Origin: a virus
Reading direction: 5' to 3' (one strand)
DNA: 34,654 nt
Virus record (IMG/VR): IMGVR_UViG_3300021091_005167
Coordinates: 1 to 34,654 of that record
Both the position numbers and the translations under genes were made by a program. The notes beneath the pieces were generated by a model. The model was not told the DNA's origin. It saw nothing but the letters and a program-made list of their open reading frames with translations, and did no database searches. Positions 7,917 through 32,925 of the stretch are shown here, in pieces (position 1 is the stretch's first letter; every line of letters begins with the position of its first letter).

Positions 7917-7924
7917 TTAATGCT

Positions 7925-7933
7925 GTGTAATTT
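7925..7933 (+). promoter_or_regulatory. Candidate phage late-promoter element (GTGTAATTT) upstream of the 268-aa structural gene
   Basis: GTGTAATTT lies 19 nt before the ATG at 7953, followed by AAAAGGTAAAAGGA, which contains the Shine-Dalgarno. It is one of three similar elements at structural gene starts and forms a divergent pair with the minus-strand copy at 7908-7916. It also argues for the start at 7953 rather than the ATG at 7920, since the earlier start would place the element inside the gene. Confidence 0.4.
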
Positions 7934-7952
7934 ATATCAAAAGGTAAAAGGA

Positions 7953-8763: not shown

Positions 8764-8772
8764 GTGTAATTT
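8764..8772 (+). promoter_or_regulatory. Candidate phage late-promoter element (GTGTAATTT) upstream of the 271-aa structural gene
   Basis: GTGTAATTT sits in the 31-nt gap after the previous stop, 18 nt before the ATG at 8791. AAGGTATAAGG between them supplies the ribosome-binding site. It is the third copy of the element seen at 7908-7916 and 7925-7933. Promoter activity is inferred. Confidence 0.4.
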
Positions 8773-17988: not shown

Positions 17989-17997
17989 ACTTTTTTT
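17970..17997 (+). terminator. Weak intrinsic terminator-like hairpin at the convergent junction
   Basis: TTTAAT and ATTAAA form a 6-bp stem with an 8-nt loop, followed by C and a run of seven T. It covers the last codons and stop of the fibre gene. The stem is entirely A-T, so termination strength is doubtful. It is nevertheless the only terminator-like signal where the two transcription blocks meet. Confidence 0.3.
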
Positions 17998-18764
17998 ATT
18001 CTTTCAATTAATTCAAATACTTTACTTTTAGGAACATCTTTAACGGAGTTAAAATTATCTGCATTTTCAAACTTTTCTTTAACTAACTTCTTCTTTAGAG
18101 TGTCAAAAGTTATACCTTTTTCTTGCATGATTTTCTCTAAAAGAACCGTTGGATTCATTGGATTCTCTTTTTCAGAATCCTCTTTTGCAACAAGACCAAG
18201 TTTTGCATCTCCTAACTCTTCCTGAGATACAATATTAATTTTTAAAAAATTGCGGACACAGCGAACAAAGGCCCTATTTTCTGCTATCGCAGCTAGAAAA
18301 TAACGAGCAAAATCTTTCGTATTAACAAGAGAAGCGTCTGCTAAGGCTTCGAATATTACTGGGCGATTTTCTGTTTCATAATTAGGAACCCATGTAATTC
18401 TGCAAGAAGTAGCGAAATAATTATCTGTAGCACTTATTACATTATATTCTACGCTAGTGAATCCTCTAATCTGCGCTAACTCTTTAATTCCTCCAAGTAA
18501 AATTAATAGATCTTTATCCTCCAATTTGGAGACATCTGTTTCTTGTGTTTTCTGCCTATTTGGTACTAAGTATTGGGTTTTCACCATAGCTCTCCAGTTG
18601 ATAGACCCATCTTCATTAAAGATATAGTTTATATTATCATTCTCTAGAAGGCCATAAGAATTTCTTCTAAAGACTTTAGGTGGCACAATTTTATCCGATT
18701 GTTCTACTGTGAAACTAGGCATTTTTGCTAGCTCTGTACTGTTAATAGATTTTGATTCTTCCAT
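17985..18764 (-). CDS. Putative ssDNA-annealing / recombination protein (Rad52-like group, uncertain)
   Basis: The protein has 259 aa. The core (about 95-180) has RGFTSVEYNV, then a CRITWVPN strand, then FEALADASLVNT and AIAENRAFVRCVRNFLKI. This resembles the pattern in Rad52/Sak-type phage annealing proteins, where an A-DAS-x-N-T motif precedes a helix with AETRA-x-x-RALR. The C-terminal 50 residues are a Lys-rich helical tail (about 208-259), which in such proteins often contacts other replication factors. It stands alone behind its own promoter and ends overlapping the fibre gene stop by 4 bp. The family assignment rests on motif resemblance only; it could be another DNA-metabolism protein. 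Confidence 0.45.
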   Translation of the reverse strand: MEESKSINSTELAKMPSFTVEQSDKIVPPKVFRRNSYGLLENDNINYIFNEDGSINWRAMVKTQYLVPNRQKTQETDVSKLEDKDLLILLGGIKELAQIRGFTSVEYNVISATDNYFATSCRITWVPNYETENRPVIFEALADASLVNTKDFARYFLAAIAENRAFVRCVRNFLKINIVSQEELGDAKLGLVAKEDSEKENPMNPTVLLEKIMQEKGITFDTLKKKLVKEKFENADNFNSVKDVPKSKVFELIERIKKV

Positions 18765-18770
18765 TTAAGA

Positions 18771-18799
18771 ATAGTACTATAATTTTAGTATTATGTCAA
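18771..18799 (-). promoter_or_regulatory. Sigma70-like promoter, predicted leaderless, for the annealing-protein gene
   Basis: TTGACA, 17-nt spacer, TACTAT, then 6 nt to the ATG at 18764. The -35 overlaps the last two codons of the preceding gene. A start site about 7 nt past the -10 would fall on or beside the A of ATG. There is no Shine-Dalgarno. It shares this geometry with three other gaps in the block. Confidence 0.55.
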
Positions 18800-19960
18800 C
18801 TTAAATAAGTATAAATATTTTGATTCTTCCCAAAACTCTATTGTGTCTATAACTTTTATAGGATTACCTTCATAAGGAATTTTATTTAGATAAGCGGCTT
18901 TTGAGTTGTATATTTTACCCATACTTATAGTCAACTTATTAGATTTATACAATATATTATTTAGATCAATATTAGCGATCTCCTTAATATCTTCTTTTTT
19001 AGCTTTCTCTATCTTTACAATACTTGTTAAATCCATATACTGTAGTTTTATTCTTTTAATAAAATCTTGATCTTTTTGAGTAGAGACGACGAATGGTTTC
19101 CCTAATTTTCTCAAATTTTTTACAAAATTTACATCATGACTTTCGTCAATTTCATATATTATTTGAGCTATATTATCTTTATACATTGTCAAAATATCAT
19201 TACTTATTGGTTTAGATGTAACAATAGAACAATTATTTCTTTTTAATTGCTCCCCTAACACTTCTTCATTAAAATGATAATCTAGTCTCATAATCAATGA
19301 CTGAACATTTAGCTTGCTTATATCAGCTATTACTGAATCTGGTACTGATTCTATTAGTTTTCTAGAATATTCTTGTCCAATATATAAAGATTTAATATTA
19401 AGCATATTTTCACCTAGTAGTTCAAGAATGTAATTTGCTATGTCTATTGGATCAATTTCATTAATTGTCTTTGGACTTTCTGTGGCAGAATAACTTGGCC
19501 TTCTATTAGATTTATCTGCTTCTAAAATTCTTGTTAGATGTTTATCACCAAAATATGGTCCAGCATTTTCTGGTCTACTATTAGAATATAAAGATACTAT
19601 TGGTTTATTATAACTGCTTGCTACATGGACCCCAAAACTATCTGCACCAAAATGAAGAATTGCCCCTTTAATTAAATAGGCTGCTTGATTTATATTAGTT
19701 TTGCCTTGTAAATGATAACATCCCTCAATTGGTTTTTCATCTTTTCCACCTATTTGAACGATATGGATATCTTTGCTTTTTAGATACGGAGATATCAAAG
19801 ATATAACTTCTCCCCATAAATCATAGCTTTTAGCTTCATATTTACTGCAAGGCTGAAAAGATATATATTTCTCAAATGGAATTGGGCAATATTTTTCATA
19901 AATGAATGGTTTACCTATCTTTAAGCCACAATTAAGCGCGTATGTTTCAACTAGATGCAT
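18791..19960 (-). CDS. C-terminal half of a GT9 glycosyltransferase plus unknown domain
   Basis: The protein has 389 aa. Residues 1-190 match the C-terminal, nucleotide-sugar-binding half of GT9 (ADP-heptose transferase-like) enzymes: ISFQPCSKYEAKSYDLW, IHIVQIGG, NQAAYLIKGAILHFGADS, GVHVASSYNKPIVSLY. The N-terminal half of the same fold is at the end of the upstream gene in a different frame. The HLVETY at the very start of this protein fits directly after that half. The ATG at 19960 overlaps the upstream stop by 14 bp and has no clear ribosome site. Residues 190-389 are unrecognised, with alternating strands and helices. It is either one half of a two-chain enzyme, the product of a +1 frameshift, or a broken gene. 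Confidence 0.65.
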   Translation of the reverse strand: MHLVETYALNCGLKIGKPFIYEKYCPIPFEKYISFQPCSKYEAKSYDLWGEVISLISPYLKSKDIHIVQIGGKDEKPIEGCYHLQGKTNINQAAYLIKGAILHFGADSFGVHVASSYNKPIVSLYSNSRPENAGPYFGDKHLTRILEADKSNRRPSYSATESPKTINEIDPIDIANYILELLGENMLNIKSLYIGQEYSRKLIESVPDSVIADISKLNVQSLIMRLDYHFNEEVLGEQLKRNNCSIVTSKPISNDILTMYKDNIAQIIYEIDESHDVNFVKNLRKLGKPFVVSTQKDQDFIKRIKLQYMDLTSIVKIEKAKKEDIKEIANIDLNNILYKSNKLTISMGKIYNSKAAYLNKIPYEGNPIKVIDTIEFWEESKYLYLFKLT

Positions 19961-21866
19961 ATTTATAGTCCTTGTAAGCTATCTTTGTTTTACCATTGTG
20001 AAGATATGTCAAAACTCTTTGGGTTTGCGTATATGGTAAAAATGCTATCTCAAAATATCCTGTATGATTTCCTATTCCCTCCAACCACACTAAACTATCC
20101 ATTTGGGGAATATATTGTATTACTTTATGTACATACTCATTGCCTTCGAGGATTTCAAAATATTCTGGTTTTGTAGCAACGTATAGATTATATTCTGGAT
20201 ATTGCTCTTTTATTGATTGAAATAAACTCGTAGATAAAAATACATCACCTATGCTTTCTGGCATTACATATAATAATCTTTTTCCGTTATCGTTTTTATC
20301 TAAAAGATCTTCAAATTGGGCGGATTTATTCTTTGCATTCTCTTGCAAGGCAACATTACGAAAATAATTTTCTATGTCTATTCTTTTGGTGCCTTTCTTA
20401 ATTTCATTCATCCAATATTTATGGCCATCGTCATTTTGATCAACCGTATGCATTTTTAATATATTATGATACATAAATATCAACCATTCTGAATCATCAT
20501 TAATTTCTGGGATCGTTGCGTATGGATCTTTTTCATCTATTTTAAAAATTAGATCTTTATCTATAGTTTTTGATGCGTCTGCAAAATTTTCTATAATTTT
20601 CCCAATTGTTTCTACGGAAAAATTATCAAGTGTCCATTTTCTGGCTTCTAGTCCAAGTCTTAGTCTTTCTTCTTTATGCATAGTGAAAGCTTTATTTATG
20701 TTATCTGCTATGGATTTAGGACTTGTAGATGCTTTAATAAATTCTGTTCCGTGCTCTCTGTATTCAGACCAATCGAGAGCCAAGCTATGAGCTTCTTCTT
20801 TGCACATTTCTTCTCCGCAAGAATAGTTTGTGACTAAAGTAAGAAGTCCTGCTAATTTAGCTTCTTGAATTGGTATTTCTTGTCCTCCGCTTGTAAACGG
20901 ATGACAATAGACATCCATTAAATTATATATCTCATTTAATTGTTCTTCTGTGACTCCTATTGACACATTTGTTGTCGTTTGTGTCTTTTGAGCTCCGCAA
21001 TGCTTGCAGTCTAGATCTTGTCCTGTAAAGTTCTTGACTTCATATTCTCCACAATTTTTACATACATAAGTCGTATATATATCTTTATGATCTATGCCAT
21101 ACTCATTTGCCAGTTTTAATATATTCCATCCCTCTCCAAAATGAGTATGAAGTAGAAGCCCAGAGTTTTGTATATTATTCTGTTTTTTCCACAAAGCATA
21201 TCCCTCTAAAAGATTGGGCACGCTTTTTCTTAATTGATTTCTAAATACAAATCCGATTATAAATTTGTTTGGATCAATATTTAGCTTTTTTCTTAATTCT
21301 AATTTTTGGTCTTGCTCTAAAGGGAAAAAATTTTGTGTATCGAGCGCTCCATGAATGGTTTTTACATGAGTTTGACCAAGTTTATGCAAAGCTTGGGTTG
21401 CGAAATCGCTCCATATCCAATAGTTTTTAACTTTTGGCGCACATTTTACTGCTGAGTCTAATATGGGCAATGAATCTAGTGTCGTCCATATTACTGAATT
21501 TATTTTGTTAAACCATGGCTTGTCTATTGCAAAATCTACGCCCCAAATATCTTGAACCGCTATGTATATATCTGGTTTTTCTTCTTTGATAACTTCATCA
21601 ATTAAATAGGCTCCATAACTAGCCATTCTCGCTAAATGAGGATCTTTATTTAATTTTTCTAAATCTTGCTGTGTATTAGGTAATGATCCTATGCTTTTCC
21701 ATGGAGTTCTTTCTAGCTGTAGATTTCCCTTTTGCATGCCGCAACAATAATGTACAATCTCATATTTATTAGTATTGTATAAATATTTTAATATTGCCTT
21801 AGCGTTTCTGCCAAATCCAGTTTTCGCTAAAGCAAAATCAGATTGAAATAGAATCTTCTTCCGCAT
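19947..21866 (-). CDS. GT4-type glycosyltransferase with zinc ribbon, DUF4214-like linker and N-terminal half of GT9
   Basis: I chose the ATG at 21866 (639 aa), 5 nt after the upstream stop; a TTG at 21878 would overlap it. Residues 1-430 form a GT4 (GT-B fold) retaining glycosyltransferase, with KTGFGRNAKAIL near the start and the donor-site motif SGGQEIPIQEAKLAG near 326-340. An inserted CxxC...CxxC zinc ribbon lies at about 269-290. Residues about 460-510 resemble a DUF4214 unit (FMYHNILKMHTVD...YW). From about 530, LLYVMPESIGDVFLSTSL begins the N-terminal half of a GT9 domain, which stops after KIAYKDYKYASS. The rest of GT9 is in the next gene. It probably transfers sugars to a phage or host glycan; the substrate is unknown. 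Confidence 0.75.
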   Translation of the reverse strand: MRKKILFQSDFALAKTGFGRNAKAILKYLYNTNKYEIVHYCCGMQKGNLQLERTPWKSIGSLPNTQQDLEKLNKDPHLARMASYGAYLIDEVIKEEKPDIYIAVQDIWGVDFAIDKPWFNKINSVIWTTLDSLPILDSAVKCAPKVKNYWIWSDFATQALHKLGQTHVKTIHGALDTQNFFPLEQDQKLELRKKLNIDPNKFIIGFVFRNQLRKSVPNLLEGYALWKKQNNIQNSGLLLHTHFGEGWNILKLANEYGIDHKDIYTTYVCKNCGEYEVKNFTGQDLDCKHCGAQKTQTTTNVSIGVTEEQLNEIYNLMDVYCHPFTSGGQEIPIQEAKLAGLLTLVTNYSCGEEMCKEEAHSLALDWSEYREHGTEFIKASTSPKSIADNINKAFTMHKEERLRLGLEARKWTLDNFSVETIGKIIENFADASKTIDKDLIFKIDEKDPYATIPEINDDSEWLIFMYHNILKMHTVDQNDDGHKYWMNEIKKGTKRIDIENYFRNVALQENAKNKSAQFEDLLDKNDNGKRLLYVMPESIGDVFLSTSLFQSIKEQYPEYNLYVATKPEYFEILEGNEYVHKVIQYIPQMDSLVWLEGIGNHTGYFEIAFLPYTQTQRVLTYLHNGKTKIAYKDYKYASS

Positions 21867-21871
21867 TATTT

Positions 21872-22456
21872 CTACCAAAGATCGTCTTCTTTATCTGATA
21901 ATTCTGCGTCCTCTTCAATATCTTCTGATATATCTTTCTGTTTCCTATTTTCTAAAGCCTTTGATTTTGCATTTTTTAATCTTTTAATTTCTTCGCTTCG
22001 TTCTGTAGCGAAAATATGGCCTAATCCAAATTTAATATATTCTGCCACCATTCTAGATTCAGCAAATGTAAAACCAATTAGAAAGCTAACTGGAGGTTGA
22101 GTTGTTTGGGTTTTTGAGTTTTTAATTACATTTAAGCTATATCCAATCTGCTTGTCTTCTCTAATATAAGGAGAAAATTTAATTCCTAATTTTTGATTCT
22201 CTGAGTTATGAAAAAAGTCTGCGGTTCTATTATTGTCTAGAGCATCTAAAATGCCACAAACTTCGATTTTTGATAATTTAACAACGACTTTCTTTTCTGG
22301 ATTTTGAGCGTTTTCTGAAAAGTTGCCTATCTTTTTTTGATCATTCCATGAGGCTTGTTTAATTAAATTTAAATAAAAATTACCATCTATATTATTAAAT
22401 GAAAAACTACAAGCGGTACCAGTATTACGAGGTGTAGGTTTATAAATCTGTATCAT
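21872..22456 (-). CDS. Putative single-stranded DNA-binding protein with acidic C-terminal tail
   Basis: The protein has 194 aa. The core (1-150) is predicted beta-rich: GTACSFSF, then SWNDQKKIGNF, VVVKLSKIEVCGILDAL, KLGIKFSPY and IGYSLNVI, then a helix FAESRMVAEYIKFGL. The C-terminus is a Lys/Arg-rich linker followed by an acidic tail ending ELSDKEDDLW, like the protein-docking tails of bacterial SSB and phage ssDNA-binding proteins. It is the first gene after a strong promoter and lies next to the polymerase. No other SSB candidate is seen in the block. No OB-fold signature is obvious, so a Whirly/PC4-like fold is equally possible. The function is inferred. Confidence 0.5.
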   Translation of the reverse strand: MIQIYKPTPRNTGTACSFSFNNIDGNFYLNLIKQASWNDQKKIGNFSENAQNPEKKVVVKLSKIEVCGILDALDNNRTADFFHNSENQKLGIKFSPYIREDKQIGYSLNVIKNSKTQTTQPPVSFLIGFTFAESRMVAEYIKFGLGHIFATERSEEIKRLKNAKSKALENRKQKDISEDIEEDAELSDKEDDLW

Positions 22457-22463
22457 ATATTAT

Positions 22464-22492
22464 ATATTATCAATTATTAATTAATAAATCAA
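22464..22492 (-). promoter_or_regulatory. Sigma70-like promoter, predicted leaderless, for the SSB-like/glycosyltransferase operon
   Basis: TTGATT, 17-nt spacer, TAATAT, then 7 nt to the ATG at 22456. The -35 begins 1 nt after the polymerase stop codon. The region before the ATG is entirely A and T except for one G, so there is no Shine-Dalgarno. The geometry matches the other three promoters in the block. Confidence 0.5.
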
Positions 22493-22493
22493 G

Positions 22494-25034
22494 TTATTTT
22501 TCTTTAATTTCTCCTAGTTTCATAAATATCTTATGATCTTGTATAGCTATAATATCTGCAAATACAGAATCCTCACTCTTCTTTTTCCCTCTTATGATAA
22601 CTATATTATTTTCTACTGGTAGGCTATTATTCATTTCTTTGCATTCTTCTATCTTATCATTAAAAATCAAAGTATTTATGGTAGAATTTTCGTCTTGAAC
22701 GTTTAATCTTAGATATCTTGTTTTTTTACTGTTATTAGCAACACCTAAATAATTATCTTTAATTACTCCTATAAATAATACTGGCAAGCCATTTGGGGCA
22801 TCATTTACCTCTCTGATATTTAATAAATCCGGCTTTTGATCAGAAAATATATCTTTTAGATTTGTGTTGTATGTATAGCCAAGAAGCTTATTTTCATAAT
22901 ACCAATTAGCAAACCTTTCATTCTTACTGTTTTGTTCATAAATCTTTTTATAAGGCGCGTAAGATTTTCTAATCGTTTCTAGCCTAGAGTCTTTGACTAT
23001 AATTTTTCCTTTATCGTCTTTAGTCGTATTCAAAAATTTGATTATTTTAAATAGATCGTAATCAAACTTCTCTCCATACATCATCGCATATTTTTGTTCA
23101 TTTTGATTTAAAATATTCCAAAGTTGGGCTTCTAATACTACTTTACTCCTAGATTGTTTAAAGTTCTCAAGCGCGCCAGCTTGGATTAGAGGAGATAATA
23201 CTCTGATTGATAGCTTTGCTTGTTGCGCAGATTTAAAAACATCAAATTTTGTTGCATATTTATTTCTAAAATTATTTAGCCTTTCAATCGATTTATCTGA
23301 AATGCCCTTGATAGATAATAATCCAAATCTTATATCATTTTCTTCAACACTGAAATCCATCTCAGATTTGATAATATGAGGTGGTAATAGTTTTATATTA
23401 AATAAATCCATTTCTTTATGTATTTTTGATATCTCGCTGATAGGGTCAGGTTCAAATCTCGTCATTCTTAGCAGTGATAAAAAGAATTCTTTAGGGTATT
23501 TAAATTTTAAATATATTGTAATTGCAGCTAGTGCCGCATAACTTTGACTATGACTTGCGTTAAACGAATAATTTGCTGAGTCTTCTAAAATTTTCCATAA
23601 TACTTCACTTACTTCTTTAGGAAGATTATTCTTGATGCATTTCTTTTCAATCTTTTCTTTCCAAGATTTAATTTCATCAACCTTCTTTTTACCGACTATT
23701 CTTCTTAATATCTCGGCTTCATCAAGCGTAAATCCTATCTTATGTGCCATTTGCATAAGCTGTTCTTGATATAGTGCAACTCCGCCTGTACGTCTTAGAA
23801 TATCATCAAAAAATGGATGGATAGATTGAAATTCTCCAGTTTCTACGTATTTAGCATATTGATCTACGAACTGTAATGCTCCAGGTCGTGCTAGAGCTAA
23901 TACGGCACTTAACTCTTCTGAATTCCGAGGCTTTACTTTTTTGCAAACTTTAAAATTCGTATCTGCTTCAATTTGAAACAGACCATGAGGACTTTTTAAG
24001 TTTTGTAGCTGTTGATATATAAATACATCTTCTATATCTATATCTTCTATTTTTTTATTAATCATTTTACATACATCATAGACTACTGAAACACTTCTTA
24101 ATCCTAAGAGGTCTAATTTTACGTTAAATTGACTAATATCATTCATGTCAAAAGCGCTTACTTGCTCTTTATCTGACGAAAGTTCTAAGGGACATGTTCC
24201 TGATAAAGGGGTGTGTGAAATTTGTATGCCCGAAGGATGAATCCCTTTATTTTTAATTAAGTTCCTTAATTTAAGAGCTATATTATATATCCCTGGATTT
24301 TCATCACACCATTCTTTAAATTTTTCTACATCATCATAGGCTTCAGAAATATCTTTAACTTGCCCAAATATTTTAGGTATTAAAGAGCTTACGCTAGTCA
24401 TTTCTGATTCACTTTTTTCTTCTACAATTTTACCGCACTCTTTAATTAAAAGTTTTCCACTAAGAGTGTTAAATGTTAATATTTTGCTAATTCTATTTGG
24501 AAATATATCGTTAAGAAAATCAATTACTTTGTGACGATTATAATAGCAAATATCCAAATCAACATCACACATCAAGCTTCCGTCAAGATAAGTTACTCCA
24601 TCAACAACTTGTTTTTTTGCTCGAATTTTAGATATAAATCTTTCGAAATACAAATTGTGCTTTATCGGATCTACTTTTGTTACTCCTATTAAGAATAGGA
24701 TAAGGCTTCCGGCAGCACTTCCTCTACCTAGACCTGTTGGAATCTCATTTTCTTTACAGTAATTAATAACGAGCCAAACTAATATTATATAATCTATAAA
24801 TCCTAAATCTTCTATAACATCAAATTCGTGGTCTAAGCGTTTTTTATAATCTTTATTATTAGGTAAATTAGAGTAGGCAAGCTTTTTCAAAAAGTCTATA
24901 TTTGATGCGTCCTCAGATAAACCCAGAGATCTTTTATGTTCGGGTTTTACCTTAAATTCTGGAAGTCGAACTCCATAAAGAGGTAGTGAAATCTTTTGAA
25001 AAGAATTAATATAATCAGATATCTTCGTCGTCAT
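22494..25034 (-). CDS. dnaE: C-family DNA polymerase III alpha-type catalytic subunit lacking its PHP domain
   Basis: The protein has 846 aa; bacterial DnaE is about 1160. It begins where the palm begins, with LGFIDYIILVW and GLGRGSAAGSL (about 100-110). The metal-binding aspartates lie in CDVDLDICYYNR (D157, D159). Then come ALARPGALQFVDQY, YQEQLMQMAHKIGFTLDEAE with GKKK, and NASHSQSYAALAA. HhH and OB-fold regions close the protein (about 700-830, VLFIGVIKDN...TRYLRLNVQDE). The PHP domain is encoded separately at 25936-26697, with a proofreading exonuclease and a small gene between. It is the replicative polymerase of the phage. It overlaps the upstream 83-aa gene by 20 bp. Confidence 0.93.
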   Translation of the reverse strand: MTTKISDYINSFQKISLPLYGVRLPEFKVKPEHKRSLGLSEDASNIDFLKKLAYSNLPNNKDYKKRLDHEFDVIEDLGFIDYIILVWLVINYCKENEIPTGLGRGSAAGSLILFLIGVTKVDPIKHNLYFERFISKIRAKKQVVDGVTYLDGSLMCDVDLDICYYNRHKVIDFLNDIFPNRISKILTFNTLSGKLLIKECGKIVEEKSESEMTSVSSLIPKIFGQVKDISEAYDDVEKFKEWCDENPGIYNIALKLRNLIKNKGIHPSGIQISHTPLSGTCPLELSSDKEQVSAFDMNDISQFNVKLDLLGLRSVSVVYDVCKMINKKIEDIDIEDVFIYQQLQNLKSPHGLFQIEADTNFKVCKKVKPRNSEELSAVLALARPGALQFVDQYAKYVETGEFQSIHPFFDDILRRTGGVALYQEQLMQMAHKIGFTLDEAEILRRIVGKKKVDEIKSWKEKIEKKCIKNNLPKEVSEVLWKILEDSANYSFNASHSQSYAALAAITIYLKFKYPKEFFLSLLRMTRFEPDPISEISKIHKEMDLFNIKLLPPHIIKSEMDFSVEENDIRFGLLSIKGISDKSIERLNNFRNKYATKFDVFKSAQQAKLSIRVLSPLIQAGALENFKQSRSKVVLEAQLWNILNQNEQKYAMMYGEKFDYDLFKIIKFLNTTKDDKGKIIVKDSRLETIRKSYAPYKKIYEQNSKNERFANWYYENKLLGYTYNTNLKDIFSDQKPDLLNIREVNDAPNGLPVLFIGVIKDNYLGVANNSKKTRYLRLNVQDENSTINTLIFNDKIEECKEMNNSLPVENNIVIIRGKKKSEDSVFADIIAIQDHKIFMKLGEIKEK

Positions 25035-25266
25035 TCTTTCTTTTTTTACGTTTTTTATTATACTTGTTGATGGATTTATCTAGATTTCTTTGAAACTCTG
25101 ATAAACCTTCTTTTAAGGCTGCGAATGATTTTTCTTCATTATTCAATGCATAAAATACGTCAGCCTTGCTATTTGTTTTGCCATGCTGTAAGGTTATTAA
25201 CAGGTAGTCGATATTTTCTTTCTCAAATTTATTGAGAATATCATATATAAAATCCATTGATGCCAT
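25015..25266 (-). CDS. Small hypothetical protein in the polymerase operon
   Basis: I chose the ATG at 25266 (83 aa), with AAAAGGA about 12 nt upstream; a TTG further up would overlap the exonuclease. The middle is helical, with a possible coiled-coil (FEKENIDYLL, then EEKSFAALKEGLSEFQRNL). The C-terminus is a strongly basic run, NKKRKKRK, followed by NDDEDI. It lies between exonuclease and polymerase genes and overlaps the polymerase start by 20 bp, so it may be a small replisome factor that holds polymerase and exonuclease together. I do not recognise a family. Confidence 0.6.
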   Translation of the reverse strand: MASMDFIYDILNKFEKENIDYLLITLQHGKTNSKADVFYALNNEEKSFAALKEGLSEFQRNLDKSINKYNKKRKKRKNDDEDI

Positions 25267-25301
25267 AATTAAATTATATCCTTTTCTTATGTATAATGCA
25301 A

Positions 25302-25943
25302 TCAAATATTAATCATATATTTTATTTTATTCCATACTTTAAAATTTAACTCTAAATCTGATAAGGCGTCGTGCAAAGAATCATAATCATGATTTATATC
25401 TAGATCTTTTCCTGCCGCAGTTAAATTAGTTTTAACATTTTTAACTTTTGTATGGTATAATTTATACATATATTCTGGTAAAGTTTCTTTTTTCGAGTCA
25501 AATACTGTTGAGGTTTTTATGCCTTTGTATAAAAGATTAGTATCAATACTTTTAGATATAAAATCTAAGGGTTCCTGCTTCATAAATTTATAGTATTCAT
25601 TAATTATGTACAGATCAAATCCTACTATATTATGTCCTACTATATAATCCGCCTTCTCTATCCAATCTTTTAATGTTGGAAAAAATGCTTCTGGACTAAT
25701 ACCATTTTTTTCTATTTTTTTTGGGTCAAATCTAGTTATCCTAGCCGCGTCTTTGCTTATTTTTAAATGCGTATCCCACTTGATGCAGACATCTTTAGAA
25801 TCAATAATTTTATCTCCTTGGCATTTAAGCATAGCGATTTGCCAAGGTAAATTATGACAATAGTTTAAGCATAGATTAAATGTTTCGCAGTCTATAAATA
25901 AAAATGTTTTATCTTTATTAAATCTTAATAAATGCTCATCCAT
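25302..25943 (-). CDS. DnaQ-like 3'-5' proofreading exonuclease (DEDDh)
   Basis: I chose the ATG at 25943 (213 aa) because GGAGG lies 10 nt upstream and it overlaps the PHP gene stop (ATGGATGA). The open frame extends to 25979, inside that gene. Motif Exo I is FLFIDCETF (Asp/Glu), Exo II is VGHNIVGFDLY, and Exo III is HDALSDLEL, giving the DEDDh set. Lying between the two parts of the polymerase, it most likely serves as the epsilon-type proofreading subunit, acting in the cytoplasm at the fork. No clamp-binding peptide was identified. Confidence 0.88.
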   Translation of the reverse strand: MDEHLLRFNKDKTFLFIDCETFNLCLNYCHNLPWQIAMLKCQGDKIIDSKDVCIKWDTHLKISKDAARITRFDPKKIEKNGISPEAFFPTLKDWIEKADYIVGHNIVGFDLYIINEYYKFMKQEPLDFISKSIDTNLLYKGIKTSTVFDSKKETLPEYMYKLYHTKVKNVKTNLTAAGKDLDINHDYDSLHDALSDLELNFKVWNKIKYMINI

Positions 25944-26697
25944 GATTTTGCTCCCTCCAACTTTCCATACAAAATTCATTACTCGACATATGCTCTATCT
26001 CAGGTTTATTTAATGTAGTTCTATTGTTAATGCATCTAAAAGTAAGATAGCTTTTAAAATCTTTCCTTTCTTTATAATAAATGCTTTTTGTTTTAATGAC
26101 TTCGAGTTTATTTGATTCACTAAACTTTAGCATTTTATTTTTAAGAATATTATCAAAAATCAATTGATTATCTTCTACAAATATCGTTGGTTTATAATTT
26201 TCTATAAATGATATACATTGATATCCTTTAAATGCATTATTGAACATAAAATTATCATAGAATGGTATTGCTAGTTTTATACCTTCGTTAAAGTGCGTCT
26301 TTAAAATTTGCATATCTAATCTTGGAGTGTAGTAGAACCCTTCTGTACTGGCTTTTGTCCATAATTTAATTAATGTTTTATACCCCTCATTCCCGTTAGC
26401 GAATATAATTAACTTATGATGTTTTTTAAGTTCTTCTTCATTCTTATTGTTAATGTTCTCGCAAAAAACAAATTTAATGCCAAAAATCAAATCAATATTA
26501 TTTTGTTTTAAATTTTTATAAGCTTGAAGAAAACCACTGAAACAATCTTCTACTAAGAAGACTTTCTTTAATTTGTTCTCTTTTGCGATCTCGATAATAG
26601 AATCTGGTCCATTTTCTTCTGGACTCTCGTCTTCAAGAGTCAATATGCTTTTCCCGATAGAAAAATGGCTTTTAAACAATGGAATAACTTTATGCAT
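25936..26697 (-). CDS. Stand-alone PHP domain of a split DnaE polymerase (active site degenerate)
   Basis: The protein has 253 aa. The overall order matches the DnaE N-terminal PHP domain: a first strand with SHFSIG, a helix SIIEIAKENKLKKVFLVED, IDLIFGIKFVF, and especially HHKLIIFANGNEGYKTLIKLWTKASTEGFYYTPRLD (positions 26280-26430), which is close to the DnaE consensus for that stretch. The usual metal-binding HxH near the start and the TDH motif are replaced (SHFS, LVED), so phosphoesterase activity is unlikely. It probably binds the polymerase and exonuclease structurally. It is the first gene of its operon, directly after a promoter, with no Shine-Dalgarno. Confidence 0.8.
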   Translation of the reverse strand: MHKVIPLFKSHFSIGKSILTLEDESPEENGPDSIIEIAKENKLKKVFLVEDCFSGFLQAYKNLKQNNIDLIFGIKFVFCENINNKNEEELKKHHKLIIFANGNEGYKTLIKLWTKASTEGFYYTPRLDMQILKTHFNEGIKLAIPFYDNFMFNNAFKGYQCISFIENYKPTIFVEDNQLIFDNILKNKMLKFSESNKLEVIKTKSIYYKERKDFKSYLTFRCINNRTTLNKPEIEHMSSNEFCMESWREQNHG

Positions 26698-26703
26698 TTA
26701 ATA

Positions 26704-26732
26704 TTTATACTTTATATTATATATAATGTCAA
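26704..26732 (-). promoter_or_regulatory. Sigma70-like promoter, predicted leaderless, for the polymerase operon
   Basis: TTGACA, 17-nt spacer, TATAAA, then 6 nt to the ATG at 26697. The -35 shares bases with the stop codon of the preceding gene. The sequence before the ATG has no purine-rich ribosome site. This is the best consensus match of the four promoters in the block. Confidence 0.6.
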
Positions 26733-27721
26733 GATAAATCGTTAAAATCATCTTTTGTTGTTGAGGACATTTCTTCTAATATATCGTTTGTAGACTGGTT
26801 TATAGAAACATTATTAAACCTTGGACACCCTGCGTATTGCCTTTTTTCAATTTTAAATCCTTCGATATTTTTAAATTCACCATTGAAATTGGATTCAATA
26901 ATCTCATTCTTTTCATTTAATTTTACATAATATTCAAAAGAATCTTTATAGGGACATTTCCAATTGCCAACTCCACACATCCATTTGTTTTTGGGATTAT
27001 CTGCGGCAAAATTTGATTCAGCACTATTTATATCAAAATTATTTATATGAGTATTAACATATTCAAGATAGTATTCAAATCCTTTAATTTGATTTTCGTC
27101 AAATTCAAGTTCTTGGATTGGTTGTTTTGGAAATCTTAAAAATAGAAACCTTACTATAGGCTTAAGTTTAGGCCATATCTTCCTGCTCGCTAAACTGTAG
27201 GTCATGGCTTGAATATTAGCCTCCAAATCATCTCCCCTAAATTTAGCTTTGGAGCTTTTATAATCAATTATAAGCATTTTATTTTTCGTTTTAATAGGCT
27301 TATCGATAAATCCCTTAATATGATATTTAGGGCTATCGCTCTTTATCTCAAAAGCGTATTCTGGCGATACGATTTTACCGTCTTCACCATAAAAATCATG
27401 TTTTAATCCTACTAAAATCATATCATCAATAATTTCAAAATTGCTTATATCTAGTGGAGCTTGATTAATTAATTTTTTAGTCAATCTTTCAATCGCTCTG
27501 CTTCCTTTGATAGAGTTGCTTTTGATAATTGATGTAAAATGCTTCTTATGCTTTTTATTCAATAGGATTTCAAATATCTTATGACAAACTGTTCCTCTTA
27601 GAGCTCCGTCATTTTGAGTTTGTGGAATTTTAGTATGATAATTATTCCAATACACCCACGAGCAGGTCTCAAGAGTTTTAATTCTAGAGGCTGATAATAC
27701 TTTTAAAGGTTTATTTTCCAT
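26729..27721 (-). CDS. Cas4/RecB-like PD-(D/E)XK nuclease with probable Fe-S cysteines
   Basis: The protein has 330 aa. N-terminal motif SASRIKTLETCSWVYW has the family first Cys. RGTVCHKIFE follows, then GFIDKP (Asp), LIIDYKSSK (D-x-K) and EANIQAMTYSLA (Q-x3-Y), the ordered signature of RecB/Cas4 nucleases. Three later cysteines (WMCGVGNWKC and AGCPRF) could complete an iron-sulfur cluster with the first. It overlaps the primase gene by 19 bp, so it is cotranscribed with helicase, ThyX and primase. Its role is probably end processing for recombination or host DNA turnover. No CRISPR array or other cas gene is present, so a CRISPR role is unlikely. Confidence 0.85.
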   Translation of the reverse strand: MENKPLKVLSASRIKTLETCSWVYWNNYHTKIPQTQNDGALRGTVCHKIFEILLNKKHKKHFTSIIKSNSIKGSRAIERLTKKLINQAPLDISNFEIIDDMILVGLKHDFYGEDGKIVSPEYAFEIKSDSPKYHIKGFIDKPIKTKNKMLIIDYKSSKAKFRGDDLEANIQAMTYSLASRKIWPKLKPIVRFLFLRFPKQPIQELEFDENQIKGFEYYLEYVNTHINNFDINSAESNFAADNPKNKWMCGVGNWKCPYKDSFEYYVKLNEKNEIIESNFNGEFKNIEGFKIEKRQYAGCPRFNNVSINQSTNDILEEMSSTTKDDFNDLS

Positions 27722-28611
27722 TGTTTAATTTCTTCTTTCGTCATTTCGCCAAAATCTTTTCTTATTGGCAATGCAATTCGTATTTGATGTTTATCAAAAT
27801 GTTTTAACAATTTTTCCTTGGTTTTATCTGCGGCTAAATTTCCTGCATTATTGTTTAGACAATCGTTATTAAATGATATATAAATCTTATTTGGATTTAA
27901 AATTAGTAAGCTATTAAGAATTCCTGTACTAAGATTTAATCCAAAAGTTACTATGCTATTTTTAATTCCAACATCCCATAACGCAAGCATATCTCCTATG
28001 CTTTCTACAAGAATAACGCTTTTTTCTTCAGATGGAATATCTGAATTTATTTGTAGTGGATATTTCCAGTTTACTTTATCTCCTACGAGTTTCCACTTGG
28101 GGCACATTTTTTCATTTCGATTTAAGATGTCTCGTCCTGCAACCCCTATTAATTGTCTTTCTTTATTAAATATAGGAAAAACATATCTTCCTTTCATTCT
28201 TCCTTCTTTAAGAATTCCTCCTTCAAATTGCTCCATTGTCTCATTGCTAATCCCTCTTTTATTCCAAAAGCTATGATCTTTGACTAATTTAAGTAAAACG
28301 TCCGGCGAATAACATTTTACTTGCTTAATTTCTGGTTTTTTATAAACAGTATAAGTATTTATTGTTGGCGCTTTTTGATTTATCCATTCTTTAGCTTCCA
28401 CATTGTTAGATAAATTTAATGTTATTCTGACTAAATCTTGTAGATTACCCGTGAGATTCTCTTTAAAGTCTACCCATTTTCCAGAATCTTTATATATTAC
28501 TAGAACATTTTCATTATCAGAATCTCTATATAATGGTCTTGTTCGATATTCTTTCGAATATTCTTTGAGATTGTATCCTAAATTAGATAAAATTTCTTTT
28601 ATGTTTTCCAT
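27703..28611 (-). CDS. DnaG-type TOPRIM primase, without zinc-finger cysteines
   Basis: The protein has 302 aa. The N-terminal 80 residues keep the shape of the primase zinc-binding module (PLYRDSDNENVLVIYKDSGKWVDF) but lack the CHC2 cysteines. The middle has KGRYVFPIFNKERQLIGVAGRDI, typical of DnaG. The TOPRIM core is VILVESIGDMLALW (conserved Glu) and IYISFNNDCLNNNAGN, where the usual first Asp of DxD is Asn. It would make RNA primers with the DnaB-like helicase encoded two genes upstream. Its start overlaps ThyX by 13 bp and it overlaps the nuclease gene downstream by 19 bp. No helicase-binding domain is obvious at the C-terminus. Confidence 0.82.
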   Translation of the reverse strand: MENIKEILSNLGYNLKEYSKEYRTRPLYRDSDNENVLVIYKDSGKWVDFKENLTGNLQDLVRITLNLSNNVEAKEWINQKAPTINTYTVYKKPEIKQVKCYSPDVLLKLVKDHSFWNKRGISNETMEQFEGGILKEGRMKGRYVFPIFNKERQLIGVAGRDILNRNEKMCPKWKLVGDKVNWKYPLQINSDIPSEEKSVILVESIGDMLALWDVGIKNSIVTFGLNLSTGILNSLLILNPNKIYISFNNDCLNNNAGNLAADKTKEKLLKHFDKHQIRIALPIRKDFGEMTKEEIKQWKINL

Positions 28612-29255
28612 TGTAATGTTTCGCTAATTAAAGGAAATTCTTTTACAAATATCTTTTTACATCTATCTGCGATTATTCTATGTTCTTTCTGCGTATTTTG
28701 CTCTGTTCTTAATTCAAGGTAATGAATCCAGCTTCTTAAAGATCCTTTCATATACATTGTTGTTTCTGTGGTCAGGGGTAATACCATTCTAGCAACTTCT
28801 TTAGCGACACCATTTTCAATCATAGTTTCATAGCAATGTTGAGATAATGCTATGGATTCTGCAATCAAATGGCTAATATTTTCATATGCGGGATTTGTAA
28901 CTGGCATGAGATTCTCACCTACTTGTCTATTTTTATCTCCTTGAAGTCTTAATTCAACATCTTCAAATTCGGTTGCCATGCTGTATCTTTGACTAAACTC
29001 TTGAAAGGAAAAGGACCTGTGCCTTAGAATTTGCGCTGCAATAGCTCTGCTCGTTTTAATTTCTACTGTCATATCGACTAATTCAAATGGAGACCAATGT
29101 TTATGTTTGATTAAAAATCCTAATAATTTTGGCGCAGTCTCTGTATTCATTTGATTAGATGGATTACTAACTCTAGCACAATAGGCAACGAGATCTTCAG
29201 CATTATTTATTCCATCAATATATGGTTGAGTTATAGATATTAATTTTACATTCAT
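28599..29255 (-). CDS. thyX: Flavin-dependent thymidylate synthase ThyX
   Basis: The protein has 218 aa. The ThyX motif RHRx7S is present as R78-H-R80 ... S88 (RHRSFSFQEFSQRYS). SPFELVDMTVEIKTSRAIAAQ precedes it. The C-terminal LRSWIHYLELRTEQNTQKEHR matches the substrate and FAD region. The enzyme makes dTMP from dUMP using methylene-tetrahydrofolate, FAD and NAD(P)H, supplying DNA synthesis. It overlaps the helicase stop as ATGA and has GGAG 7 nt before the start. The length is normal for the family. Confidence 0.95.
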   Translation of the reverse strand: MNVKLISITQPYIDGINNAEDLVAYCARVSNPSNQMNTETAPKLLGFLIKHKHWSPFELVDMTVEIKTSRAIAAQILRHRSFSFQEFSQRYSMATEFEDVELRLQGDKNRQVGENLMPVTNPAYENISHLIAESIALSQHCYETMIENGVAKEVARMVLPLTTETTMYMKGSLRSWIHYLELRTEQNTQKEHRIIADRCKKIFVKEFPLISETLQWKT

Positions 29256-30742
29256 ATTAATTCTCCGTCTTCATTTGTTCCGCCTTGGTCAAAATCTAAC
29301 CTTTCATTCTCTGCGTCTACAATTTCTCGTAAAGTTCCTCGTTCTTCTACATTAAAATTATTAACATCAAAATTAATATAGTTATTGAAATATTTAAATT
29401 CATTCTCGCCAACTCTTCTGCGGACAAGGTCGTGGTGACCTGCTCCTTCTCTGCCTTGAAATCTTGTTTTAATAGCTATTAGTTTATGTGTCCCGAACTG
29501 TTCTCCATCTACTTGTATTTCATCTTGAGTCTTTCTCCTAAAAATTCCTACAAATGACGCGAACCATTGCATACGATCTGATAGTGCAATTGCAGAACTG
29601 TCATCAGTAACTTGATTTGCACTTCTGTTAAAGTTTTCTCCTGTTCTATTCAACTGCATCGCAGTAATAACTGGGCATTTAATTTCTTCTGAGATTCTTT
29701 TTAATTTATCAATCTTATCGCCAATAGCTTGATGCTCTGCCCAATTTTGACTTACTTTTTCACCAGTCAATTTGATATAATCGTAAACTATGAGCGCTTG
29801 ATTTCCTCTGCCCACTTTTGTATAGTACCATCTTCTAATAATAGATGATACTTCATCTACATTTTTATTTGCTACATGATAATGGTAATGAGTCATTCCT
29901 TTAACTTTTGGCCAAGCATCCCTCACTTTTTGGATCATCTCTGGATTTTTTCTCCAGTTGCCAGTTTCAATAAACCAAAGTGGAACGCCAGATATACTTG
30001 ACACTAGTCTCATTTGAGTATCTAAAGTAGACATTTCAGTGTCTAAAATTAAAGCTTTTGTATTTTTATTATGAACGTTTGCTGTTTTATAGGCAATATC
30101 ATTAAGCCATGTACTTTTCCCTTGACCAGGCCTACTTACTATAGAATAAATATTCCCTTGTTTTAGACCTCCATATAGATTATTAAAATTATTATATGGA
30201 GTCTTTAGACCAGTTTCTTCTCTTGGGTTATTGCCTATTTCTTCAATAATACTTTCCATTTCCTCAAATAGATTAACTGGTTCTCCTTCGAGGTAATATT
30301 GACTAACTTTATTATTATAGATTTCATCTACTTTAGAAACGATAGAGTCAATTCCGTCTTCTGCATTTTCTTTAACAAATTTCTTTACATTTTCAGCTGT
30401 TTCAAAAAGCTCTCTCCGAACTTTAATCTTACTTAATTCTTTACAGGCGTTAATTGTGCCTTGAGTATTGATCTGAGTAAGAGCCAACGCATCAATGTAT
30501 GAAAATATATCTATTTCATCTTTAAAAGAAATTCCTAAGTTTTTAATTTTTTGCGCCAATAATATTTTATCAATCTTGTTGTTCTTATTTAACTCGTCTT
30601 TTATGCATGAAAAGATTGTGGTATGTACATCATTATAAAAATCTTTTTCTGAAATAAATTTTGATACATCAAAAAATACTTCTGGATTTCTAATGAGGCC
30701 ACCTAGAACATGGCGCTCTACTTGAACTGAATATATAGGCAT
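29252..30742 (-). CDS. dnaB: DnaB-like replicative DNA helicase
   Basis: The protein has 496 aa. The DnaB N-terminal domain starts at the very first residues (PIYSVQVERHVLGGLIRNP), which fixes the start. The RecA-like domain begins near 180, with Walker A SRPGQGKST (203-211), an acidic ILDTEMS, Walker B LIVYDYIKL, the H3-type motif ITAMQLNRTGE, and an Arg-finger region near TRFQGREGAGHH. It unwinds the fork as a hexamer and couples with the primase in the same operon. The gene follows a strong promoter with no Shine-Dalgarno before its ATG. Confidence 0.94.
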   Translation of the reverse strand: MPIYSVQVERHVLGGLIRNPEVFFDVSKFISEKDFYNDVHTTIFSCIKDELNKNNKIDKILLAQKIKNLGISFKDEIDIFSYIDALALTQINTQGTINACKELSKIKVRRELFETAENVKKFVKENAEDGIDSIVSKVDEIYNNKVSQYYLEGEPVNLFEEMESIIEEIGNNPREETGLKTPYNNFNNLYGGLKQGNIYSIVSRPGQGKSTWLNDIAYKTANVHNKNTKALILDTEMSTLDTQMRLVSSISGVPLWFIETGNWRKNPEMIQKVRDAWPKVKGMTHYHYHVANKNVDEVSSIIRRWYYTKVGRGNQALIVYDYIKLTGEKVSQNWAEHQAIGDKIDKLKRISEEIKCPVITAMQLNRTGENFNRSANQVTDDSSAIALSDRMQWFASFVGIFRRKTQDEIQVDGEQFGTHKLIAIKTRFQGREGAGHHDLVRRRVGENEFKYFNNYINFDVNNFNVEERGTLREIVDAENERLDFDQGGTNEDGELI

Positions 30743-30750
30743 ACAATATA

Positions 30751-30779
30751 ATTCTATTCTAGATTTAATTTTAAGTCAA
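30751..30779 (-). promoter_or_regulatory. Sigma70-like promoter, predicted leaderless, for the helicase-ThyX-primase operon
   Basis: TTGACT, 17-nt spacer, TAGAAT, then 8 nt to the ATG at 30742. The -35 directly follows the preceding stop. There is no ribosome site. Because the DnaB N-terminus is conserved from residue 2, the start codon is secure, so a leader of 0-2 nt is the natural reading. Confidence 0.6.
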
Positions 30780-31028
30780 CTAATCTTTTTTCTTGCGTTT
30801 CTTTTTGCTGAGGTCTGCAATATTTTGTATTGTGCATTCAATATTTAAAGAATTCATTGCTTCTGCCCAATAATTAACGTATTGCTGTAATGCCATTGCA
30901 TTTAATTGATTATCGAATTTTGTCATTACTTGAGGATCCCCTTCGGAATTAAAATTGAATAAAATAAATCCTCCAAATGAATTTTCGTTTAAAGCTTCGA
31001 GCAGCGAGTTAGGAAAATTTTTCTGCAC
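30780..31028 (-). CDS. Small hypothetical protein, basic C-terminus
   Basis: The protein has 82 aa. The first usable start is a GTG at 31028; no good Shine-Dalgarno is seen. The N-terminal half includes a hydrophobic GGFILFNFN strand, the middle is helical (LNAMALQQYVNYWAEAMNSL), and the C-terminus is SKKKRKKKD. A GTGTAAATT sequence lies a few bases before the start, at a different spacing from the structural genes. It ends exactly at the helicase promoter. It is not recognised; a small DNA-metabolism accessory is possible from context. Confidence 0.55.
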   Translation of the reverse strand: MQKNFPNSLLEALNENSFGGFILFNFNSEGDPQVMTKFDNQLNAMALQQYVNYWAEAMNSLNIECTIQNIADLSKKKRKKKD

Positions 31029-31041
31029 ATAAAAATTTACA

Positions 31042-31461
31042 CTAAAATATGTTTATATCGAAATTTTCTGAGAAGAAATTGGGAGATAAATTTTTCAAAT
31101 CTTTTTCATAAATTTCTATAAATTTAAAATTATTCTTTTCTAGCCATTGCGCTTTTTTACAATCTCTTTTAAGACTTTGCAGATAATTCATCCGCGAATT
31201 GGCGTGAAAAAATTCATTAAAACTTTCGTGCTGTTCTCCATTTACTTCTACTGCGATTTTTTTAGTTGCATTAAGTAGGTCTACTTTCATTAAAGATCCG
31301 TATACTGGAAACTCTTCGTAAACAATGTGATTTTGCCAATATTGCTGAAAAAATTTTTTTACATTAAATTGTATTTTACTTCTACTTGACTTATTCCAAT
31401 CTATCAAATACTTTGAAACATTTTTATTTACAAGTTTTCCATTTAGACTATATAATCTCAT
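31042..31461 (-). CDS. PD-(D/E)XK endonuclease-like protein (DUF559/Vsr-like)
   Basis: The protein has 139 aa. The core VDLLNATKKIAVEVNGEQH carries Asp, then E-V-N and His, typical of very-short-patch-repair-like and DUF559-type nuclease folds. A later helix NYLQSLKRDCKKAQWLEKN and strand FKFIEIYEKDL fit the same fold. It overlaps the RecA gene stop as ATGA. Its likely role is repair or recombination with the RecA-like protein. Catalytic Lys is replaced by Asn in the E-x-N position, as is common in this group. The exact substrate is unknown. Confidence 0.65.
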   Translation of the reverse strand: MRLYSLNGKLVNKNVSKYLIDWNKSSRSKIQFNVKKFFQQYWQNHIVYEEFPVYGSLMKVDLLNATKKIAVEVNGEQHESFNEFFHANSRMNYLQSLKRDCKKAQWLEKNNFKFIEIYEKDLKNLSPNFFSENFDINIF

Positions 31462-32600
31462 GCAGGAATAAGTTTTTTATATTTTTCAAATAAATATTCT
31501 GTAATCTTAGGGTTTTCTTCAAGATACTTCCTAAAATTATCCATGCCTTGGTGTTGCTTAGATAGCTCTAGATCTGCGCTCTTAAGCTCTTTAATAAGGT
31601 CATCTCCTACAGTAATCCATGCTCCTTTTGCTGTGACAAATTGCCAAGCGATGAGCTGATCAATAATTTCGTACTCTCTCCAGATAGATGTTCCGCTTTT
31701 GCGACCATGTTTAATTGGATATTCTACTTTATGATTTGTTGTTTCATTTGTAGACTTTTTAATTGTTAGTTTTGCTGTATGACCAATGATTTTATTCTTA
31801 ATTGGATCATATTTTTCATTGGGTTTTTCTAAAATGAGGTCTTTATTGAACCTTGGCTCAAATTCAATAATCCAGTTTGCAAAATGCAACAATGCATTTC
31901 CCCCCGTTGCGGTTGTTTGTCTTATATCTTTATTTGCTGCGTAAGGGTCTAGCTTAATATCTGATCTGACTTGACTAATAAAAATCGCCATATGGCCTCT
32001 CTTGGCAAGAGCAATAGACATTTTTTTCATTAAGACCGATGATATTACTGCTCCTCCTGCTACTTTCGTAGCGTCTGACAAAGACTTTGATGCATCATTC
32101 TTTGGCATTAATCCATCAACCGAATCCAAAATAAACAAATATTTTTTATTCTCTGGGTTATTCTTAACTAGTTCAAGCATAAGTTCTGATACTGTTTCAA
32201 AAATATTAGATTCAAAAACGAAACAGTTTCCATCATTCCATTGATCAGGGTCTGTAACATATTCTAATCCAGATCTATCTTGAATTTCTTTAGATAATCT
32301 GCCTTCCGCTTTGATTAGCACTCCTCTTGAGTTGGGAATAGTTTTAAGAAAGTTTCTCATAACTTCAAGTGCTTCTGAGGTTTTGCCACCTTCATTCATG
32401 CCTAAGAATCTGTGAAGCCCAGGACTAAAGCCTCCTCCCATTACAAAATCTAAATTTAAACTACCAGAAGACACTTTATAGTAAGTTTCTTCTTCAAAGT
32501 TATAGTGATCCTCTTTATTGTCTTTTAAGAAAGCCTTTAACCTATCATTTGATATAGGCCCTTGAACGACTTCTTCTTGAATTGATTTAGGTCTAGCCAT
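31458..32600 (-). CDS. RecA/UvsX-like recombinase
   Basis: The protein has 380 aa. Residues 42-62 (YKVSSGSLNLDFVMGGGF) precede Walker A GMNEGGKT (67-74). RGVLIKAEG, Walker B YLFILDSVDG and ISQVRSDI (L2 region) follow, then TTATGGNALLHFANWII. Strand exchange on ssDNA for recombination-dependent replication or repair is expected. A strong Shine-Dalgarno, GGAG, lies 7 nt before the ATG, within the last codons of the 110-aa gene. The downstream nuclease overlaps by 4 bp. It could equally be closer to UvsX than to RecA. Confidence 0.88.
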   Translation of the reverse strand: MARPKSIQEEVVQGPISNDRLKAFLKDNKEDHYNFEEETYYKVSSGSLNLDFVMGGGFSPGLHRFLGMNEGGKTSEALEVMRNFLKTIPNSRGVLIKAEGRLSKEIQDRSGLEYVTDPDQWNDGNCFVFESNIFETVSELMLELVKNNPENKKYLFILDSVDGLMPKNDASKSLSDATKVAGGAVISSVLMKKMSIALAKRGHMAIFISQVRSDIKLDPYAANKDIRQTTATGGNALLHFANWIIEFEPRFNKDLILEKPNEKYDPIKNKIIGHTAKLTIKKSTNETTNHKVEYPIKHGRKSGTSIWREYEIIDQLIAWQFVTAKGAWITVGDDLIKELKSADLELSKQHQGMDNFRKYLEENPKITEYLFEKYKKLIPA

Positions 32601-32925
32601 TTAAAAACTCCTTTAATGTTTTTGGTTTTCTTGTGATATGTTTATCAGTTCCAATTTTATCATCTTTTAGATTATATGTCATTTTAATATCTTTGTCAAC
32701 ATCTAATAAGGCTTTTTCTTTCAAAAGAAACTTTTTACCGTCATAAGATAATAACCAGTCTAGAGATTTTAATTCTTTTGATTTAATTTTAAACCAAAAT
32801 ATAGCTCTTGGTTCAAACTTAATTAATTTTTTCGCTTGATTTATTTCGTAGCCCCAAGGTATATTTTTTGATTTGACAAACTTTTTTATTATAAAAATGC
32901 ATAATTTGTGTCCAGATAGTTTCAC
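32593..32925 (-). CDS. Hypothetical 110-aa protein overlapping the GT17 gene by 107 bp
   Basis: It starts with GTG at 32925, preceded by AGGAGAG at 7 nt, an unusually good ribosome site that supports the long overlap. The N-terminus is helical and basic (CIFIIKKFVKSKNIPWGYEINQAKK). A middle segment with FWFKIKSKELKSLDWLL and a Lys-rich C-terminus (HITRKPKTLKEF) follow. It ends overlapping the RecA start by 8 bp, so it is coupled to recombination genes. I do not recognise a family; a DNA-binding accessory is only a guess from charge and context. Confidence 0.6.
   Translation of the reverse strand: MKLSGHKLCIFIIKKFVKSKNIPWGYEINQAKKLIKFEPRAIFWFKIKSKELKSLDWLLSYDGKKFLLKEKALLDVDKDIKMTYNLKDDKIGTDKHITRKPKTLKEFLNG

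Follow-up and report, generated by a model that had tools for sequence, protein, structure and literature searches.

The present analysis indicates that the four intergenic gaps in the replication block of an uncultured tailed phage very probably carry host-sigma70-type promoters fused to the start codon of the following gene, so that the messages of these head genes would be leaderless. The stretch under study (hereafter the window) is the complete IMG/VR record IMGVR_UViG_3300021091_005167 (34,654 b), a fragment without ends from an AT-rich phage (31% GC) whose cultured relatives are remote (best identity only 28% for DnaB and 27% for terminase). Its minus-strand block (17985-34557) encodes a DnaB helicase, ThyX, a Toprim primase, a PD-(D/E)XK nuclease, a PHP-domain protein, an RNase T-like exonuclease, the core of DNA polymerase III alpha, two glycosyltransferases and a UvsX/RecA-like protein. 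This block contains only four same-strand gaps of more than 20 nucleotides (nt), each with a predicted promoter (Table 1).

As claimed by an earlier, sequence-only reading of the window, each of these four gaps shows the succession TTGA(C/T)N, a spacer of exactly 17 nt, a −10 box, 6 to 8 nt and ATG. The boxes match the sigma70-type consensus (TTGACA/TATAAT, spacer of 16-18 nt) at 8 to 11 of 12 positions, their −10 elements end 6, 7, 6 and 8 nt before the start codon, and this codon is ATG in all four cases. Dinucleotide shuffling of the 45 nt upstream gave P values of 0.003, 0.11, 0.001 and 0.004 for promoters 1 to 4. The claim that none of the head genes has a Shine-Dalgarno (SD) sequence was confirmed, no SD of at least 4 nt being found upstream of any of the four. 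According to the same reading, the −35 touches or overlaps the preceding stop codon. It does touch it at 18794 and 30779 and overlaps it at 26727-26732, where the TGA within TTGACA is the stop of the nuclease gene, but at 22492 it sits 1 nt from the stop. The SDs ascribed to the genes inside the units proved to be a tendency only: they precede RecA (AAAGGAG), ThyX (GGAG), the 110-amino acid (aa) gene (AGGAGAG) and, before its second ATG, the exonuclease (GGAGG), whereas DnaE, the PDDEXK nuclease, the primase and one glycosyltransferase have no clear SD in the window.

The prediction that the replication units begin with leaderless messages is strongly supported by comparison with relatives. 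A DnaB search of IMG/VR revealed 140 relatives, of which 80 loci (61-98% identity) were fetched; orthologs were counted as distinct upstream sequences, and a promoter was considered as kept if it ends 6-10 nt before the ATG. The promoter of dnaB is kept in 54/54 upstream sequences, that of head gene 1 in 5/5 and that of the PHP gene in 40/47, and a strong promoter is found at this distance in 37 of the 43 upstreams of head gene 2. Inside the units, the same layout is found for very few orthologs: DnaE (1/46), PDDEXK (0/54), ThyX (0/58), primase (0/56), exonuclease (2/44) and the glycosyltransferases GT1 (0/44) and GT9 (3/40). Nearly all dnaB upstreams of relatives show TTGACT, 17 nt, a TATCAT-like box and a short run to the ATG; none of the 54 distinct sequences departs from TTGACT or from T1, A2 and T6 of the −10, while the flanks drift. 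Since the conserved part of the DnaB protein begins directly past this ATG, the start codon is secure.

The recA gene shows that a gene can differ in this respect between close relatives. In the window and in most close relatives, it has its SD and no promoter; in L002/G001 (91% identity), it is preceded by a perfect TTGACA-N17-TATAAT-N6-ATG and the SD is gone. We considered recA as a fifth conserved leaderless head but rejected it for most relatives, in which TTGCCA...TAGAAT seems to belong to the end of the preceding coding sequence; it holds for G001/L002. This case also illustrates that our thresholds are consensus counts and that, at 9/12, coding DNA can mimic a promoter.

The spacing extends far beyond the four heads. 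Five related contigs of 91-172 kb (G001-G005) were analyzed in full length by searching TTGACA-like (5/6) and TAnnnT-type (4/6) boxes 16-18 nt apart and measuring the distance to the next ATG-opened open reading frame, start codons outside the four heads being taken from a simple caller. The distance of 6-10 nt was found for 38 genes of G005 (none at 0-5 or 11-15 nt), 36 genes of G004 (none at 0-5 nt, one at 11-15 nt), 15 genes of G003 (three at 0-5 nt, one at 11-15 nt), 4 genes of G001 and 3 genes of G002. Among control phages, for each of which 50 kb were scanned, T4 and HTVC008M have no such gene and SPBc2 has one, while the same scan found five in 50 kb of the Thermus phage phiYS40. Over 81 sequences, the −10 ends 6, 7, 8, 9 and 10 nt before the ATG in 84, 64, 44, 36 and 22 cases, respectively, compared to 11 cases at 0-5 nt and 24 at 11-19 nt; the reversed motif gave four cases at 6-10 nt. 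With a strict pattern, nine contigs gave about 60 matches, against zero for its reversed form. In the window and the five contigs together, TTGAC-type sites number 86 at a distance of 6-10 nt from an ATG, one at 11-19 nt and 14 at 20-45 nt. An SD accompanies 7/86 of the sites at 6-10 nt versus 9/14 of those at 20-45 nt, and the start codon is ATG in 98/105 cases of this family versus 614/733 among all called starts.

Leaderless messages, a term covering 5′ leaders below 8 nt and here meaning leaders of 0-3 nt, are much the best reading of this 6-nt floor, which is what a predicted transcription start site (TSS) on the A of the ATG requires. At sites with a distance of 7 nt, the seventh base past the −10, i.e., the usual TSS, is a T in 18/25 cases, which would move the TSS onto the A of the ATG; at distances of 8-10 nt, this base is mostly a purine, predicting leaders of 1-3 nt. 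RNA polymerase would therefore start at the A of the AUG or 1-3 nt earlier, judging from the sequence. The head gene of each replication unit would be translated through recognition of a 5′-terminal AUG, without SD pairing, and the downstream genes would use SDs or translational coupling. This layout is probably the default form of sigma70-type promoters throughout the clade.

Several points weigh against this interpretation: (i) promoter 2 (22464) is weak if taken alone (P ~0.11); (ii) AT-rich DNA commonly yields promoter-like matches, and those of the block (49 versus 70 expected from shuffles) are not enriched; (iii) the 80 loci share a common ancestry and are not independent; (iv) strict sites are few (4 and 3, respectively) in G001 and G002, both closely related to the window; (v) the leaderless TSSs are predictions from the DNA sequence; and (vi) read-through from upstream units could yield leadered copies. 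Concerning the second point, the density of promoter-like matches was rejected as evidence because the count in the block is not above that of shuffles, and the case therefore rests on position, spacing and conservation in relatives. Concerning the last one, no terminator-like hairpin was detected in the four gaps and, therefore, transcripts starting farther upstream may also run into the "operon heads".

The analysis also yielded a candidate late promoter, GTGTAAT, of which 92 sites were collected in the window and its relatives. Within 40 nt of gene starts having a free gap, this motif shows a 71-fold enrichment. It has no −35 (a TTGACA-like box in only 1/92) and reaches its highest frequency in the structural blocks of G003 and G005, which contain few sigma70-type sites; it is probably a late promoter serving structural genes. 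Its distances to the start codon fall into two groups, 7-9 nt, mostly without SD, and at least 14 nt, often with SD: an SD is present in 7/47 cases at 10 nt or less (sum over G001-G005) and in 22/38 cases at 14 nt or more (window included). The two sites of the window are of the leadered form and, since GTGTAAT and an SD precede ATG 7953, the gene at 7920-8759 probably starts there rather than at the first ATG (7920). Sigma70 region 2 was matched in 5/7 records, above the cut-off in three of them, although the records may be fragments. G004 and G005 each encode two small sigma-like proteins, one in an early-type region and one near structural genes, and these proteins of the relatives may read GTGTAAT. 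Late promoters of T4 type consist of a −10-like element read by a phage sigma factor. GTGTAAT resembles them by its lack of a −35, its position before structural genes and the sigma-like proteins encoded by relatives, but the motif differs and the link to a sigma factor is here a proposed one.

Since GTGTAAT also has a leaderless form, leaderlessness is not solely a trait of early genes: as predicted from spacing, almost all promoters of the sigma70-type class are leaderless, whereas those of the late-type class may or may not be. The proposal that leaderless messages suit an early state of infection is thus weakened. As for the description of the head genes as early, such timing would agree with their functions and with their host-type promoters. 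A clade-wide view, which we consider as tentative and somewhat doubtful, would combine host-type promoters that are almost always leaderless, a phage sigma factor reading the two versions of GTGTAAT, a leader length acting as an evolvable switch of translation mode (recA having seemingly switched) and a translation of phage genes independent of SD competition. No match to a phage IF3 or bS21 was found in seven records, which may be fragments.

Leaderlessness could also be the general expression mode of the host, whose promoters the phage would have copied independently of infection timing. We give this proposal about even chances; it concerns why the messages would be leaderless, not what the promoters are, and is compatible with leaderless promoters. 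It is consistent with the partly leaderless structural-gene motif GTGTAAT, and the PEP-CTERM and autotransporter-repeat proteins encoded by relatives suggest Verrucomicrobiota as hosts. Some members of this phylum are listed as SD-scarce although their anti-SD is intact (PMC10783764). SD-scarce Verrucomicrobia would fit leaderless phage genes, but assigning the host to this phylum from these proteins is a guess that may equally be right or wrong. Against the proposal stands the DnaB search of GTDB genome contigs, which found no close relative (only three matches, 22-24%).

Genome compaction is an improbable explanation. Ordinary promoters would have been squeezed into the shortest gap, closeness to the ATG being a by-product, and the heads would be translated mainly from read-through, by coupling or from an AT-rich unstructured start. 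The gaps are indeed short (26-37 nt at the window heads, with a median of 35-42 nt before such genes in relatives) and devoid of terminators, and the −35 directly adjoins or overlaps the stop codon of the gene before. However, 22 genes with a free upstream gap of at least 60 nt keep the spacing; in G004 and G005, this gap precedes 18 of the 69 such genes and the promoter still ends 6-8 nt before the ATG, so that compaction alone is insufficient. Moreover, leadered sigma70 sites with an SD coexist in the same genomes and only one site lies at 11-19 nt. Least credible of all are chance TTGA/TATA look-alikes in 31% GC DNA, with the real promoters elsewhere: the block count not above shuffles, the P value of promoter 2 and the coding DNA that mimics a promoter before recA of relatives at a loose threshold would fit them, but TTGACT is invariant in 54 distinct upstreams with protein identity down to ~61%, and the reversed-motif controls speak against them, as do three other AT-rich phages, which lack the pattern.

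To our knowledge, most leaderless mRNAs described in phages are isolated examples or come from Thermus. The lambda cI gene is leaderless when transcribed from PRM, a host sigma70 promoter whose TSS lies at the AUG of a phage gene, as predicted here; it is one regulatory gene, compared to tens of replication and accessory genes in the present clade. In phiYS40, the middle/late class is reported to be leaderless, with IF2 up and IF3 down (PMC3594737). This phage is likewise large and lytic, with many leaderless transcripts, start-adjacent promoters and coexisting SD-led genes, but no close sequence relationship was seen and the leaderless class is there middle/late, whereas here the sigma70-type, replication or early-like class is predicted to be almost wholly leaderless and the late-like class mixed. 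In cellular genomes, leaderless genes are commonly recognized by a −10 that precedes the start by about 10 nt or less (PMC3160421), and a −10 adjacent to the open reading frame marks them in Deinococcus-Thermus (PMC12340547). The same distance is found here as in these bacteria and in the TA-led genes of Actinobacteria (PMC12340547; PMC3160421), but in a phage clade with a strong −35 and spacers of 16-17 nt. Leaderless phage genes as such were thus already known (phiYS40, lambda cI); with respect to open-licence PMC papers, the new points are the extent and conservation of the trait in an uncultured clade, its probable link to the early class, and a late motif with two modes. Overall, a clade with contigs of up to 172 kb appears to use leaderless mRNAs for replication and accessory genes, tens being predicted per genome in its larger members. 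It offers (i) a matched gene set, SD-led in one phage and leaderless in a close relative, for studying when and why leaderless initiation is chosen, and (ii) a simple criterion, namely a −10 box followed by 6-8 nt, by which the start codons and temporal classes of uncultured phages can be assigned.

Table 1. Coordinates of promoters, genes and other features in the window and its relatives (positions without prefix are those of the window).
Feature	Position	Strand	Details
Promoter 1	18771..18799	-	TTGACA 18794-18799, N17, TACTAT 18771-18776, N6, ATG of 259-aa gene (18764)
Promoter 2	22464..22492	-	TTGATT 22487-22492, N17, TAATAT 22464-22469, N7, ATG (22456)
Promoter 3	26704..26732	-	TTGACA 26727-26732, N17, TATAAA 26704-26709, N6, ATG (26697)
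Promoter 4	30751..30779	-	TTGACT 30774-30779, N17, TAGAAT 30751-30756, N8, ATG (30742)
Head gene 1, 259 aa	17985..18764	-	no Pfam or PHROG match
Head gene 2, 194 aa, function unassigned	21872..22456	-	conserved from residue 2
Head gene 3, PHP domain (separate N-terminal part of DNA polymerase III alpha)	25936..26697	-	PF02811, 7e-14
Head gene 4, DnaB-like replicative helicase	29252..30742	-	conserved N-terminus fixes start codon
RecA/UvsX-like gene	31458..32600	-	unit-internal, SD AAAGGAG
GTGTAAT, candidate late promoter	7925..7931	+	21 nt before ATG 7953, SD present, leadered form
GTGTAAT, candidate late promoter	8764..8770	+	20 nt before ATG 8791, SD present, leadered form
Sigma-like proteins	G005:89104-89703 and 17395-18078; G004:78837-79436 and 141968-142651		
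tmRNA	L095:17160-17547, L088:14725-15112, L106:10338-10725, L098:8701-9117 (also G002:28928-29347)		

The samples of the relatives presumably come mostly from lakes, judging from the contig numbers. Phage transfer-messenger RNAs (tmRNAs) are uncommon, and all five large relatives carry one. This tmRNA is complete, its tag is unusual, e.g., AKTAKYKGHISARVSLVEETASVA, and it may be a clue to the host. Proteins with PEP-CTERM sorting signals and repeats of autotransporter type are encoded at L096:96-2903, L098:13722-16415, L084:8550-11760 and L106:847-3342. G005 carries genes encoding an adenylosuccinate synthetase and an IMP dehydrogenase (L095:4675-5667 and L095:6271-7374), the latter being itself preceded by a leaderless-type promoter. 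In the window, DNA polymerase III alpha is split, its polymerase core, exonuclease and PHP domain being encoded by separate genes (22494-25034, 25302-25979 and 25936-26697). Outside the replication block, a tail-assembly protein (2953-4257 and 3-2951) includes an intein/Hint-like stretch, CFPAGTKISTPTG, and both of these genes match phrog_21587 over about 100 aa.
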